Shown here one piece after another: positions 1,809 to 5,950 of a stretch of 64,000 nt of DNA. Both the position numbers and the translations under genes were made by a program. Position 1 is the first letter of the stretch. Every line of letters begins with the position of its first letter. Source of the DNA: Desulfosporosinus acidiphilus SJ4 (GTDB lineage: Bacteria; Bacillota; Desulfitobacteriia; Desulfitobacteriales; Desulfitobacteriaceae). A model generated the notes under the pieces. The model was not told where the DNA came from. It ran no database searches and was given only the letters and a program-made list of their open reading frames with translations. The stretch lies in the NCBI RefSeq assembly GCF_000255115.2, contig NC_018068.1, forward strand, positions 372,001 through 436,000. The letters run 5' to 3'.

Positions 1809-1919
1809 ATAACTGTTTCAAGTTCTTATTATCACAAGTACATCCACAAAAATTGCAAACGGCTAAAAGTTTGCTTTTAAAAGTTCAAACTAAAAATTAG
1901 TATGATTTGGGAGGAATTC

Positions 1920-4373
1920 ATGATGAAAAAGGTCCTGATCGTTGGTGGAGTAGCTGGGGGAGCCTCTGCTGCTGCACGTTTAAGAAGACTTGATGAAAAA
2001 GCTCAGATTATCCTGTTTGAAAGAGATGACTATATTTCTTTCGCCAATTGCGGTCTTCCCTATTATATCGGCGAAACGATCAAAGAAAGAGAGAAGCTTC
2101 TCGTTCAAACTCCTGAAGCTATGAAAGCAAGGTTTAACATTGATGTAAGAATCAATAGTGAAGTTATAGGTATTGATACGGAAAAGAAACTGGTTACCGT
2201 CAGAAGCAAGGAGCAAGGGATCTATGAAGAATCTTATGATGACCTTGTTCTTTCACCCGGAGCCAAAGCTCTCCGGCCGAATATTCCAGGGATAGACAGT
2301 TCGAAAATATTCACCTTAAGAAACATTCCGGATACAGACAGGATTAAGGCCTATGTTGATCACAAGGGTATAAATAGTGCCATAGTTATCGGCGGAGGTT
2401 TCGTCGGGGTCGAAATGGCCGAGAACCTGATCGAGAGAGGCTTGAAGGTTACCTTAGTTGAAGCCGCTCCCCACATTTTAGCACCTTTTGATTCAGACAT
2501 GGTGGTCATGGCTGAAAAGGAATTAGTCGAAAATGGCGTGGATCTTATCTTGGCTGACGGTGTCAAAGCCTTTAAAGAAATTGGAAGCCAAATCGAGGTG
2601 ACCTTGAGCAGCTCAAAAGTGGTTTCTGCTGATCTGGTCATTCTAGCCATCGGGGTGGCTCCTGATACTGCCTTTCTAAAAAATTCAGGTATAGAGTTAG
2701 GGCCGAAAGGTCATATCGTCGTTGATGAAAGAATGGAAACCAATGTCAAGGGAGTTTACGCAGTCGGGGATGCTATAGAGGTTATTGACTTTATTACGGG
2801 AGCAAAGACGGCTGTCCCCTTGGCTGGGCCGGCAAATAAGCAAGGAAGAATTGCTGCCGATAATATTGCGGGTTTGAATTCGATTTACAAAGGCACTCAG
2901 GGAACATCGATTCTCAAAGTTTTCAGTTTAACGGCGGCCAGCACAGGAGCCAATGAGCGCACTCTGCAAAAAGCAAATCTGCCTTACCGGGTTGTCTATG
3001 TTCATCCTGTGGCTCACGCCTCTTATTACCCGGCTGCTTTACAGCTGACTTTGAAACTGATTTTTAATGATCAGGGACAAATATTGGGAGCCCAGGGAAT
3101 CGGTTACGATGGCGTTGATAAACGAATCGATGTTATTGCAGCTGCTATTCGCTTAAAAGGCACGGTCGACGATTTAGCGGAATTGGAATTAGCCTATGCT
3201 CCGCCCTTCTCATCGGCCAAAGACCCTGTCAATATGGCTGGATTTCTGGCTCAAAACGTTCTGGCGGGAAGAACTCATGTGGCGGCCTGGAAGGATATTG
3301 AGTTGTCTCAACTTAACGATTCAATCCTTCTCGATGTGCGAACGGAAGAGGAATTCAGCAATGGACACATACCCGGTTCTCTCAACATTCCCCTGGATAG
3401 CTTAAGAGATAGAATGGGTGAGCTCGATAAGAACAAACAGATCATTGGCTACTGTCAGGTAGGTTTAAGGGGTTACGTTGCCGACAGGATTTTGAGCCAA
3501 AATGGCTATAAGGTATTAAATATTACCGGCGGCTATAAAACTGTCTCTCTGCAAGAATTCCAGCCTCAAAACTCAGACTCCGAGAGTCGGCAGTCCGCTC
3601 CGGGAGGCGGAGAGGCAAAGAATACACCTCAGGGGTATTTTGATAAAAGTATTGATGCCTGCGGGTTGTGCTGTCCCGGACCATTAATGCAGGTGAAAGC
3701 GGCTATGGACACTTTACAACAAGGCCAAGTACTCAAGATTTTGGCATCTGATCCTGGTTTTTATGAGGATATTAAAGCCTGGGCGAAAAGAACCAACAAT
3801 CAATTGATCGATGTGGCCAAGGCCGGGGGTGTCATTTCAGCCTTCATCAAAAAGGGCGCCCAAAGGGACCCGCTTAAGCAAGAGTCGGCAGCGGCAAACT
3901 TAAAGGATAATAAGAGCATACTTGTTTTTAGCGGAGATTTAGATAAGGCCATAGCATCCTTTATTATTGCCAATGGAGCTGCAGCCATGGGGAAAAAAGT
4001 AACGATGTTTTTCACCTTCTGGGGTCTGAATATCCTGCGAAAACATGAAAAAGTCAACACTCAGAAGGGTTTCATGGATAAGATGTTTAGCATGATGATG
4101 CCGAGAGGAAGCAAACGCCTTAAGTTATCTAAGATGAATATGCTGGGTATGGGTGGAAAAATGATCAGAAAGGTTATGAAGGATAAAAACGTTTCTTCCC
4201 TTGAAGACCTCATCAAGGCCGCAATGTGCAATGGAGTAGAGATAGTAGCCTGCCAAATGTCAATGGATGTCATGGGGATCAAACAAGAGGAATTACTCGA
4301 CGGCATTAAAGTTGGCGGAGTCGGTTATTATTTAGGGGAAGCAGAGGATTCCAACGTAAATTTGTTTATCTAA
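1920..4373 (+). CDS. CoA-disulfide reductase - rhodanese - TusA - DsrE2 fusion
   Basis: A protein of about 817 residues with four sulfur-handling modules. Residues about 1-445 form an FAD/NAD(P)H CoA-disulfide reductase (N-terminal GGVAGG, catalytic Cys in SFANCGLPYYIG, second dinucleotide site VIGGGFVG, FAD site GVYAVGDA). Residues about 455-545 form a rhodanese with active loop CQVGLR. Residues about 575-645 form a TusA domain (CGLCCPGPLMQVK). The last ~155 residues form a DsrE2-like domain with Cys in MCNGVEIVACQ. Together they suggest reduction of CoA-persulfides or polysulfide and relay of the sulfane sulfur. GGAGG sits 5 bp before ATG 1920 and 8 bp before ATG 1923; an upstream ATG at 1902 overlaps that RBS and is rejected. 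A cytoplasmic location is likely. Confidence 0.9.
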   Translation: MMKKVLIVGGVAGGASAAARLRRLDEKAQIILFERDDYISFANCGLPYYIGETIKEREKLLVQTPEAMKARFNIDVRINSEVIGIDTEKKLVTVRSKEQGIYEESYDDLVLSPGAKALRPNIPGIDSSKIFTLRNIPDTDRIKAYVDHKGINSAIVIGGGFVGVEMAENLIERGLKVTLVEAAPHILAPFDSDMVVMAEKELVENGVDLILADGVKAFKEIGSQIEVTLSSSKVVSADLVILAIGVAPDTAFLKNSGIELGPKGHIVVDERMETNVKGVYAVGDAIEVIDFITGAKTAVPLAGPANKQGRIAADNIAGLNSIYKGTQGTSILKVFSLTAASTGANERTLQKANLPYRVVYVHPVAHASYYPAALQLTLKLIFNDQGQILGAQGIGYDGVDKRIDVIAAAIRLKGTVDDLAELELAYAPPFSSAKDPVNMAGFLAQNVLAGRTHVAAWKDIELSQLNDSILLDVRTEEEFSNGHIPGSLNIPLDSLRDRMGELDKNKQIIGYCQVGLRGYVADRILSQNGYKVLNITGGYKTVSLQEFQPQNSDSESRQSAPGGGEAKNTPQGYFDKSIDACGLCCPGPLMQVKAAMDTLQQGQVLKILASDPGFYEDIKAWAKRTNNQLIDVAKAGGVISAFIKKGAQRDPLKQESAAANLKDNKSILVFSGDLDKAIASFIIANGAAAMGKKVTMFFTFWGLNILRKHEKVNTQKGFMDKMFSMMMPRGSKRLKLSKMNMLGMGGKMIRKVMKDKNVSSLEDLIKAAMCNGVEIVACQMSMDVMGIKQEELLDGIKVGGVGYYLGEAEDSNVNLFI

Positions 4374-4393
4374 GCATGCAGTTTAAAGTATGT

Positions 4394-4432
4394 AAGGCCC
4401 GACCGTCATTATAGATGACAGTTGGGCCTTTT
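4394..4432. terminator. Bidirectional terminator
   Basis: AAGGCCCGACCGTCAT pairs with ATGACAGTTGGGCCTT (one mismatch region) followed by T residues. It lies between the plus-strand fusion gene and the minus-strand microprotein gene and can serve both. Confidence 0.8.
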
Positions 4433-4452
4433 GCGTTCATTGTAAATGAATT

Positions 4453-4590
4453 TTATTCCTGGGTCGGAATTAGCTTTGCCGCAGCAATTGCTTTGGCCAA
4501 TGGACATTCATCCGTGTGTTTATCTCCACAGTGGTGGCACAATGCGGCAAGTGCTTCGATGGCAGTTTGTTTTTTCGCTGCATCAAACAT
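4453..4590 (-). CDS. 45-residue Cys/His-rich microprotein
   Basis: A small open reading frame with ATG at 4590 preceded by a G-rich RBS (AAGGGGGGGG) and TAA at 4455-4453. The product is 45 residues with a metal-site-like core: C-H-H-C, then H-x3-C (residues 18-29: CHHCGDKHTDEC), flanked by Ala-rich helices. No signal peptide or membrane segment. It follows the ECF sigma gene on the same strand and is preceded by a near copy of the sequence upstream of that sigma gene (CTATCC-N15-CGTCT). I recognise no named family. It might bind zinc, and by context could be a target or a modulator of the sigma factor; the latter is speculation. Confidence 0.65.
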   Translation of the reverse strand: MFDAAKKQTAIEALAALCHHCGDKHTDECPLAKAIAAAKLIPTQE

Positions 4591-4617
4591 TAAAACCCCC
4601 CCCTTCGTATTATCTTA

Positions 4618-4660
4618 GTTACATAATTAAGACGAACAAAGGGAGGATTGGATAGCATAC
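4618..4660 (-). promoter_or_regulatory. Putative ECF-sigma promoter of the microprotein gene
   Basis: On the minus strand CTATCC (4655-4650) is followed after exactly 15 bp by CGTCT (4634-4630). The same two boxes with the same spacing precede the ECF sigma gene. CGTC is a common -10 box of ECF promoters. The start codon follows about 40 bp later. Confidence 0.6.
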
Positions 4661-4686
4661 CGATAGATTTATTTAAAATTATTTTT

Positions 4687-5277
4687 TCATTCTATACCAG
4701 CAGGTCCTAATTTAAACGAACCTATATTTTTATACATATTACCATTGGACAAAGATTTCCGAAGCATCGTACGAGCTTTGTGCAAGCGCCATTTCACAAG
4801 TTCGTTCGATATAGATAGGATTTCGGCAACTTCTTTAGTAGAGCAGCCGTTAATTTCTCTGAGAGTAAAGATTTCCCGCTGCTGATCGGGGAGCTGAGAG
4901 ATAGCTTTAAAGAGAATTTCCTTCATTGCAGTTTTTTGACATTTATTATCAGGGTCTGGCTCTGTGGTATTATTTATATTCTCTATTTCTTCAGAGGAGT
5001 TCTCCTTCCGTACACAGCTTTTACGTTTGTAGTCAATAGTTGTATTAACCGCGATACGATATAACCATGTTGAGAATTTAGCTTGGCCATTAAATGATTG
5101 CTTGGATAGAAAGGCTTTTAAGAATGATTCTTGAGTTAAATCTTGAGCCAGATGATAATCTCCAGTCATACCGTAAATGAGATTCAATATTTTATCTTCA
5201 TTCTTACTAATTAGTTCTTCAAAACTATCTTGATTTTCCGCACTATCCGGTCCATAAATGTTACGCTTGATTTGCAT
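4687..5277 (-). CDS. ECF-type RNA polymerase sigma factor
   Basis: A 196-residue sigma-70 family factor of the extracytoplasmic-function type. Region 2 covers residues about 22-90 (YGMTGDYHLAQDLTQESFLKA, FSTWLYRIAVN), and region 4 covers about 115-180 with the helix-turn-helix CSTKEVAEILSISNELVKWR. Sigma regions 1 and 3 are absent, as usual for the class. An AACCTCC-complement RBS precedes the ATG. No anti-sigma gene with a membrane segment follows; the only downstream same-strand gene is the 45-residue Cys/His protein. The promoter boxes shared by both genes suggest autoregulation. Inducing signal unknown. Confidence 0.92.
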   Translation of the reverse strand: MQIKRNIYGPDSAENQDSFEELISKNEDKILNLIYGMTGDYHLAQDLTQESFLKAFLSKQSFNGQAKFSTWLYRIAVNTTIDYKRKSCVRKENSSEEIENINNTTEPDPDNKCQKTAMKEILFKAISQLPDQQREIFTLREINGCSTKEVAEILSISNELVKWRLHKARTMLRKSLSNGNMYKNIGSFKLGPAGIE

Positions 5278-5310
5278 ATTGAACCTCCAGAATGATTATT
5301 ATTTAGTTAG

Positions 5311-5353
5311 GTCATATAATTTAGACGAACTAATTCAACTATGGATAGTATAA
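5311..5353 (-). promoter_or_regulatory. Putative autoregulated ECF-sigma promoter
   Basis: On the minus strand CTATCCA (5348-5342) and CGTCT (5327-5323) stand 15 bp apart between CTATCC and CGTC, preceded by TATA and followed by AAATTAT. Box sequence and spacing are identical to the element at 4618-4660, and 17 of 20 positions of the downstream half agree (GTCATATAATTTAGACGAAC read on plus). Confidence 0.6.
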
Positions 5354-5544
5354 GTGTAAGGGATTTTTTTATTATATGGTAGACAAACTATCCTAAAGTC
5401 GAATTCTTGAAGAAAACTTTAGAATCGAAGCCTCTGAAAAGTCCCGCTTTATAATTATTGAAGTGTGTAAGGAGTAAGTAGAATAAATAATGAGACTTTG
5501 TAAAGGATAAACAACATATAAACTTGTATAGGAGTGATATTTTA

Positions 5545-5784
5545 ATGGAGCAACCTGTTATCGCCCAAAAGTCCCCCATCCCTGTGGACCTTAAAAAAGG
5601 TGAAACATATTATTACTGCACCTGTGGAAAAAGTGCTAAGCAACCATTTTGCAATGGAGCACACGAAGGGACCTCTTTTACACCAACCGCATTTACAGCA
5701 CAAAAAGATGAAACAGCGTACCTGTGTGCATGTAAACACACCAAGAATCCACCTTACTGCGATGGAACGCATAATAATCTATAA
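5545..5784 (+). CDS. Tandem CDGSH iron-sulfur domain protein
   Basis: A 79-residue soluble protein with two CDGSH-type [2Fe-2S] motifs: CTCGKSAKQPFCNGAH (about residues 30-45) and CACKHTKNPPYCDGTH (about 60-75). Each has the 3-Cys-1-His ligand set C-x-C-x2-[ST/H]-x3-P-x-C-x-G-x-H. The first motif carries Asn where the canonical Asp stands, the second is CDGTH. Tandem bacterial CDGSH proteins are small redox or cluster-transfer proteins. AGGAG lies 10 bp before ATG 5545; a longer frame from TTG 5524 would run through the RBS and is not used. It is monocistronic, with a terminator after it. Confidence 0.93.
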   Translation: MEQPVIAQKSPIPVDLKKGETYYYCTCGKSAKQPFCNGAHEGTSFTPTAFTAQKDETAYLCACKHTKNPPYCDGTHNNL

Positions 5785-5807
5785 GGTTTAATAATTGATA
5801 TAATAGG

Positions 5808-5841
5808 AAAATCGCGCTCTTAGTTTAGAGTGCGATTTTCT
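5808..5841 (+). terminator. Rho-independent terminator
   Basis: AAAATCGCGCTCT pairs with AGAGTGCGATTTT around TAGTTT, ending the CDGSH transcript. The flanking A and T runs would let it work in both directions. Confidence 0.8.
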
Positions 5842-5892
5842 TTAATCAGATATAATGTCCTTTAGAGAATAAACGCTTTTTACTAAGCCCAA

Positions 5893-5950
5893 TAAACCGG
5901 GTTAGCTCAAAGCCTGAGCAGGTTCGTATAGGATGGCCCGGTGACCGTAA
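5893..5950 (+). ncRNA. Structured leader upstream of thioredoxin-like gene
   Basis: Immediately 5' of the thioredoxin RBS the sequence folds as an outer stem CCGGG/CCCGG (about 5898 and 5937) enclosing an inner hairpin GCTCA-AAGCC-TGAGC and a single-stranded AGGTTCGTATAGGATGG. The GC-rich fold stands out in AT-rich intergenic DNA. I do not recognise it as a known riboswitch class; it could be a cis-regulatory RNA or an attenuator-like hairpin close to the RBS. Confidence 0.4.

Follow-up and report, generated by a model that had tools for sequence, protein, structure and literature searches.

A putative autoregulated ECF sigma factor regulon linked to DoxX genes in Desulfosporosinus acidiphilus, with a 45-residue Cys/His protein as a probable member

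In Desulfosporosinus acidiphilus SJ4, a gene for an ECF sigma factor is followed on the same strand by a gene for a 45-residue Cys/His protein (the microprotein), and the same two promoter-like boxes stand upstream of both. The locus raises the questions of whether the boxes are promoters of this sigma factor and whether the microprotein modulates the sigma factor, as a preliminary description proposed, or is a member of its regulon with another task. The reading favoured here, which we regard as probable, is of an autoregulated, DoxX-linked ECF regulon in which the microprotein is a member with its own promoter and acts as a small effector, not as the inhibitor of the sigma factor. The sigma factor would recognize promoters resembling CTAWCY-N15/16-CGTCWWAA, and would activate, besides its own gene, a small regulon with DoxX-type membrane proteins at its core. 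The microprotein, made from its own promoter, would be a cytosolic metal- or thiol-binding effector, presumably in redox or electrophile stress. At the level of sequence, the conserved boxes, the gene associations and the purifying selection described below are established.

The sigma factor and its putative promoters

The window is the whole stretch of DNA analysed, 64,000 nucleotides long (contig NC_018068.1, positions 372,001 to 436,000). The features of the locus, in window coordinates, are as follows.

5348-5323 (-): promoter-like boxes upstream of the ECF gene, CTATCC-N15-CGTCT; matrix score 27.7 (training-set site)
5277-4687 (-): ECF sigma factor gene, 196 aa; sigma-2 and sigma-4 domains, conserved C-terminal tail
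4655-4630 (-): promoter-like boxes upstream of the microprotein gene, CTATCC-N15-CGTCT; matrix score 29.9 (training-set site)
4590-4453 (-): microprotein gene, 45 aa; predicted helix, C-x2-C-x3-H-x3-C loop, helix
4394-4430 (-): hairpin, possible terminator; -22.9 kcal/mol, z -5.7, 22 bases 3' of the microprotein stop codon

The microprotein ORF starts 96 bases beyond the end of the ECF gene. The pair is flanked by a gene for a small CDGSH iron-sulfur protein (5545-5784, +) and, on the other side, by a gene for an 823-aa fusion of pyridine-nucleotide disulfide reductase, rhodanese, TusA and DsrE-like domains (1902-4373, +). By these domain assignments, the pair lies in a redox/sulfur neighbourhood.

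The window sigma factor has sigma-70 regions 2 and 4 only, as expected of the ECF class. It matches Pfam Sigma70_r2 with 57.7 bits (cut-off 24), Sigma70_r4_2 with 54.3 (25.7) and Sigma70_ECF with 38.9 (21.1), and NCBIfam TIGR02937 with 113.1 bits (cut-off 42.9); no equivalog cut-off was reached among the 25 matches listed of the 122 NCBIfam matches. The predicted model (pLDDT 75.6, pTM 0.38) matches ECF structures. A search at E 1e-20 found matches in 15 of 45 genomes of the family, from which four with only distant matches (30–35% identity) were dropped. Close homologues (at least 61% identity) are thus present in 11 genomes at 13 loci, with two loci each in the source genome (G000) and G024; G014 belongs to the same genus as the window. 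In a draw of 398 genomes across the phylum, 10 passed 1e-45, comprising G000, G008, G028, G007 and six others (G285, G166, G130, G084, G118 and G168), which brings the genomes with a close ECF to 17. The match in G118 covers positions 1–110 only, and this gene may be broken. Wider genome searches around G166 and G168 covered three and one genomes, respectively.

The pattern CTATCC-N15-CGTCT, first noted before both genes in the preliminary description, occurs at exactly two places in the window, and none of 100 dinucleotide shuffles contains it. The flanks reported with it are present at both sites, with TAT one base ahead of CTATCC and AATTAT one base past CGTCT. AAC-type -35 boxes are typical of many ECF sigma factors. 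In the source genome, the stricter pattern CTATCCN{14,16}CGTCYTAA has three matches, compared with none in a reversed control, and the looser CTATCCN{14,16}CGTCT has six in each, so the short form of the boxes is not in itself specific genome-wide. In the 11 ECF-carrying family genomes the strict pattern yields 16 sites as against one in the reversed control; in the other 34, in which no close ECF was found, it yields seven as against 11. One of these seven (G022) precedes a cytochrome b5-DoxX-like gene near a contig end, so this genome may carry an ECF gene that was lost in assembly. Single matches of a second, looser genome-wide pattern (30 sites in 12 genomes) mean little, because its control has 13; several have no fitting gene downstream, e.g. 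in G021:C21.

A promoter matrix was built from 12 sites and scanned over 250 bases upstream of genes, with spacers of 14–17. Scores of the training sites are circular, as the 12 sites come from the same loci. Among 228 other ORFs (100 aa or longer) at 18 loci, two reach a score of 10 and none reaches 14, in a background scan that used 150 bases and spacers of 15–16. A score of at least 14 is found before 8 of the 13 family ECF genes, several of these being training sites, which is consistent, at the level of sequence, with the autoregulation proposed earlier; the site in G023 (15.7) reads AGTC instead of CGTC. The other five ECF genes have no box of their own scoring 10 or more (G014, 8.4; G021, 3.5; G007, 2.4; G028, 2.0; G040, 1.4). 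In G014, G021, G028 and G040 a boxed cytochrome b5-DoxX gene precedes the ECF gene. G007 has the ECF, yet no score above 10 occurs before it or before either of the two DoxX genes of that genome. In G285, G166, G130, G084 and G118, the ECF gene lies within one gene of a DoxX or cytochrome b5-DoxX gene, and boxes with CTAACC or CTATCC (scores 25.0–30.0) head the group.

The two-box motif, looked for in related genomes, thus recurs before most ECF genes, before DoxX and cytochrome b5-DoxX genes, and before microprotein genes. Some of these genes are unlinked to the ECF locus: a doxX gene in G000, cytochrome b5-DoxX-like genes in G028 and G168, and a nitroreductase gene in G168, all with boxes 28–67 bases 5' of the start. 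DoxX is fused to a cytochrome b5 domain in several genomes. Genes in or near the ECF loci of various genomes encode DUF1858, DOPA-dioxygenase-like LigB, double BFD [2Fe-2S], Flavodoxin_2, hybrid cluster (prismane) and MarR proteins. Together with the FTR1 iron permease genes beside some microprotein genes (see below), this gene content suggests a setting of redox, electrophile or iron stress.

The second ECF locus of the source genome (L057 8456-17868; G000:C3, about 1.404–1.414 Mb) carries DUF1858, LigB, DoxX and double BFD protein genes, and is parted from the microprotein-FTR1 locus of that genome by two large ORFs that resemble serine recombinases by eye. The genome has an extra doxX copy (L074 7268-8308; G000:C3, about 577 kb), whose boxed upstream region is near-identical to that of the other doxX; a 113-aa ORF beside it clusters with a 259-aa LigB protein. 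From these similarities, the extra doxX and the 113-aa ORF are a recent partial duplication. In G028, only an 84-aa DoxX end is called for the boxed cytochrome b5-DoxX gene by the ECF (L066 7306-7827), which may be broken; another contig has a second boxed copy, whose frame has 221 codons.

Such duplicates bear on a different explanation of the boxes, namely that they are not the promoter of this sigma factor but a site for another regulator, or a stretch of upstream DNA that the genes have in common by duplication. The near-identical upstream regions of the duplicated doxX genes are indeed those of recent copies, and the link between the sigma factor and the boxes is itself drawn from sequence. 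Across families, however, the spacer sequences vary while the boxes persist. No sigma-70-type promoter match overlaps the boxes in the scanned part of the window (4300-5900), and it is only in the genomes with the ECF that strict sites outnumber those of the control. Another regulator, or duplication, is a distinctly improbable source of the boxes.

The microprotein as a conserved and probable member of the regulon

No Pfam or NCBIfam family matches the microprotein at E values up to 1. Its relatives occur in 9 of the 45 family genomes, at 10 loci, one of which is cut by a contig end. A search of the class (82 genomes) yields just two further matches, both weak and short, in G054 (with an internal stop) and G081, and the phylum draw adds one microprotein in G168, a metagenome-assembled genome (MAG) of another family, and two weak matches (G370 and G401). 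The total is 11 loci in 10 genomes. Named records with the microprotein come from Desulfosporosinus (five, genomes or MAGs) and from one MAG of unclassified Bacillota. The frame, whose conservation could be checked against relatives at the 10 loci other than that of the window, has an invariant C-x2-C-x3-H-x3-C. The four residues (C18, C21, H25 and C29 in the window copy) are among 21 invariant columns in nine aligned microproteins, and the copy in G168 retains the same ligands. Values of pN/pS range from 0.08 to 0.37 in the 37 pairs listed of 45, which are those with pN under 0.25, synonymous sites being saturated in many. This conservation marks the microprotein as a genuine protein that is under purifying selection.

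In the predicted model, the Cys/His loop connects two helices (pLDDT 85). Comparison with solved structures gave no usable match (Foldseek, best E 4.9 for two chains; VIA-align, Z 3.5 and 2.9), and neither did the microprotein profile against PDB sequences (best E 0.099). The invariant set of ligands makes metal binding plausible. The CCHC zinc knuckle has the pattern C-x2-C-x4-H-x4-C. The microprotein shares with it four ligands in the same order and a short loop, and differs in its spacing and in the placement of the loop between two predicted helices. In G285 and G401 (L106 and L122), MarR-family proteins have C-terminal tails that match the microprotein profile, with E values of 0.0076 and 5.1e-5. 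These tails read C-x2-C-G-x2-H-x3-C after Leu or Ile, with the spacing of the microprotein. They differ in being fused to a regulator, and as short, weak matches they may be convergent. A gene for a MarR-like regulator (by eye) also lies about 3 kb from the window pair (1011-1436, -); its product has no Cys/His tail. A literature search on MarR and zinc knuckles found nothing relevant by title among open-access papers.

The preliminary description placed the microprotein in the sigma regulon, and this is supported at the level of sequence by loci outside the training set. All seven such microprotein loci in ECF-carrying family genomes score 10.4–26.3 (G017, 26.3; G023, 19.5; G014, 15.5; G028, 12.0; G007, 11.3; G024, 11.0; second G000 locus, 10.4), the best sites having spacers of 15 or 16 and ending 24–54 bases 5' of the ATG. 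The upstream region in G168 scores 14.7. G033 and G011, in neither of which a close ECF was detected, score 3.5 and 4.2. Boxes are thus present at nine of nine microprotein loci in genomes with the ECF, compared with neither of two in genomes where none was detected, so shared regulon membership is well supported by sequence; the box-negative loci are few, and the G011 assembly is fragmentary (970 contigs).

An FTR1 iron permease gene adjoins the microprotein gene at 4 of the 11 loci (second G000 locus, G014, G024 and G028); the G000 copy was identified by domain scan and the other three as its relatives. Co-transcription of the two genes was considered and rejected. The gaps between them are 221 (G024), 226 (second G000 locus), about 260 (G014) and 427 bases (G028), and what we take to be a Fur-box-like stretch (motif by eye) precedes FTR1 in G024, G014 and the second G000 locus. 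A hairpin scan found hairpins 3' of the microprotein gene in G024, G028 and the second G000 locus. Because of the gaps, the hairpins and the Fur-box-like stretch, the microprotein and FTR1 genes are read as separate units. In the same scan the window copy had none, and the folds for G014, G017, G033 and G168 were no more than weak, while a separate folding computation gave strong hairpins for the window and G168. The window hairpin at 4394-4430 has no clean T run after it and is absent from a terminator scan of 4300-5900.

A bufferin-like nature of the microprotein was also rejected. PF05114 is DUF692, presumably the modifying enzyme of bufferin-type Cys peptides; no PF05114 gene was found in any of the 10 genomes searched, and 2 of 14 control genomes have one. 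The DoxX protein does show a weak resemblance to HvfX (57.4 bits, below the cut-off of 80).

Possible control of the sigma factor

It had been proposed that the microprotein might be a soluble, metal-binding modulator of the adjacent sigma factor. It would then be a metal-dependent anti-sigma factor or co-factor which, being itself under sigma control, would form a feedback loop. The gene arrangement is striking in this respect: at 5 of 11 microprotein loci (G000, G017, G024, G007 and G168), in two families, the gene immediately downstream of the ECF gene, in the same orientation, is that of the microprotein. The reports cited below describe small Cys-containing or cytoplasmic anti-sigma factors of DoxX-controlling ECF sigma factors (HrsE and MseR). 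This close association did not extend to genomes: the microprotein was not found in 9 of the 17 that carry the ECF (G008, G015, G021, G040, G285, G166, G130, G084 and G118), of which G040 is 78% complete and G285 has only the MarR-tail match. Conversely, G033 and G011 have the microprotein, there unboxed, with no close ECF detected. Where both genes occur they may be well apart: in G014, G023, G028 and the second G000 locus, the microprotein gene is either on a different contig from the ECF or some 9 kb away from it. The ligand order in all nine aligned microproteins is C-x2-C-x3-H-x3-C, and not the H-x3-C-x2-C of ZAS anti-sigma factors. The role of effector is favoured over that of modulator because the microprotein was not found in nine of 17 ECF genomes, occurs in two genomes in which no close ECF was detected and lacks the ZAS order; we consider a modulator unlikely.

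The earlier statement that no classical anti-sigma gene is present held for the window locus, where none was recognized among the scanned neighbours on both sides of the ECF gene, with the caveat of a DUF1858 gene in three relatives. In the ECF loci of relatives, none of the anti-sigma families was found among the part of the neighbours that was scanned, and a distant gene is possible. The motif H-x3-C-x2-C is usual in the DUF1858 family. Within 3 kb of 19 ECF loci it occurs in 7 of 583 ORFs (at least 40 aa, overlapping frames included); four of these encode DUF1858 proteins, three directly behind the ECF gene, and the other three ORFs lie outside the domain scan. From its motif and place, DUF1858 is a possible anti-sigma factor. 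The fuller proposal would be that this protein (66–72 aa) is a redox-sensitive anti-sigma factor and that the microprotein replaces it elsewhere, small Cys-rich proteins being interchangeable. Its gene stands about 25 bases behind the ECF gene in the second G000 locus, G024 (C4) and G008, and behind both the ECF and microprotein genes in G007, and the DUF1858 proteins contain HG[LM]HCFGC. Against this, the family (DUF1858/TIGR03980) is named for the hybrid cluster protein and not for sigma factors, and the maps of G015, G021, G285 and G166 show neither protein next to the ECF. Such an interchange is highly improbable.

In the favoured reading of an effector microprotein, the sigma factor may be controlled through two invariant cysteines of its own or at the level of its own transcription. 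Of these cysteines, Cys113 immediately precedes sigma-4 and Cys145 lies within it. Both are invariant across all 18 aligned ECFs, some of which are nearly identical, so the sigma factor is a candidate thiol sensor. The equivalent positions are not Cys in three solved ECFs aligned with them (SigW, Mycobacterium tuberculosis SigE and E. coli sigma-E). A tentative extension, which we consider rather unlikely, is that the two residues form a thiol or metal switch for promoter binding, so that the sigma factor would sense the signal with no anti-sigma factor, while the microprotein would buffer the metal or thiol, compete for the signal and close the loop.

Comparison with known systems

CorE-type (ECF238) and ECF57 sigma factors have no anti-sigma factor; according to one account (PMC8999054), sensing of metal or redox state is attributed, or proposed to be due, to conserved Cys residues in the sigma factor. 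In that account, CorE has a Cys-rich C-terminal domain and a linker CXC, and two Cys of ECF57 are thought to link sigma-2 and sigma-4. The sigma factor described here differs from both in its single Cys at 113 and at 145; the 18 aligned ECFs have no Cys in the tail and no invariant CXC, and so are not CorE-like.

Among open-access papers searched by title, none on a DoxX-linked ECF of the Bacillota was found, and none on Desulfosporosinus and DoxX. Bacillus catechol/quinone regulons may contain DoxX proteins. DoxX is not named in the accessible parts of two papers on these regulons (PMC6212828, PMC12673573), and the comparison was not used as evidence.

Control of DoxX by an ECF sigma factor with an anti-sigma factor is already known from Haemophilus influenzae, Neisseria and Caulobacter (PMC7907618, PMC2893595, PMC3511200). 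The RpoE2-HrsE system of H. influenzae responds to HOCl, its regulon includes a DoxX-family protein, and the anti-sigma factor HrsE has 67 aa (PMC7907618). In N. meningitidis, SigE controls DoxX, and the anti-sigma factor MseR is encoded beside it (PMC2893595). The SigF-NrsF system of Caulobacter, in which NrsF is likewise encoded beside the sigma factor, responds to chromium and cadmium through a regulon that includes DoxX (PMC3511200). The regulon predicted here resembles these in being a small stress regulon of an ECF sigma factor that includes a DoxX-family membrane protein. It differs from them in having no recognized anti-sigma factor at the window locus, and from the known DoxX-controlling ECFs also in its upstream box CTAWCY, the cytochrome b5-DoxX fusion and the microprotein. 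It would be a compact and directly testable ECF regulon of anaerobic Bacillota, with a recognizable promoter, a sigma factor with no evident anti-sigma factor and a conserved 45-aa protein outside the Pfam and NCBIfam families. DoxX proteins, whose function is poorly known, recur under ECF control in unrelated bacteria (PMC7907618, PMC3511200), and the regulon predicted here offers another place to test what they do.
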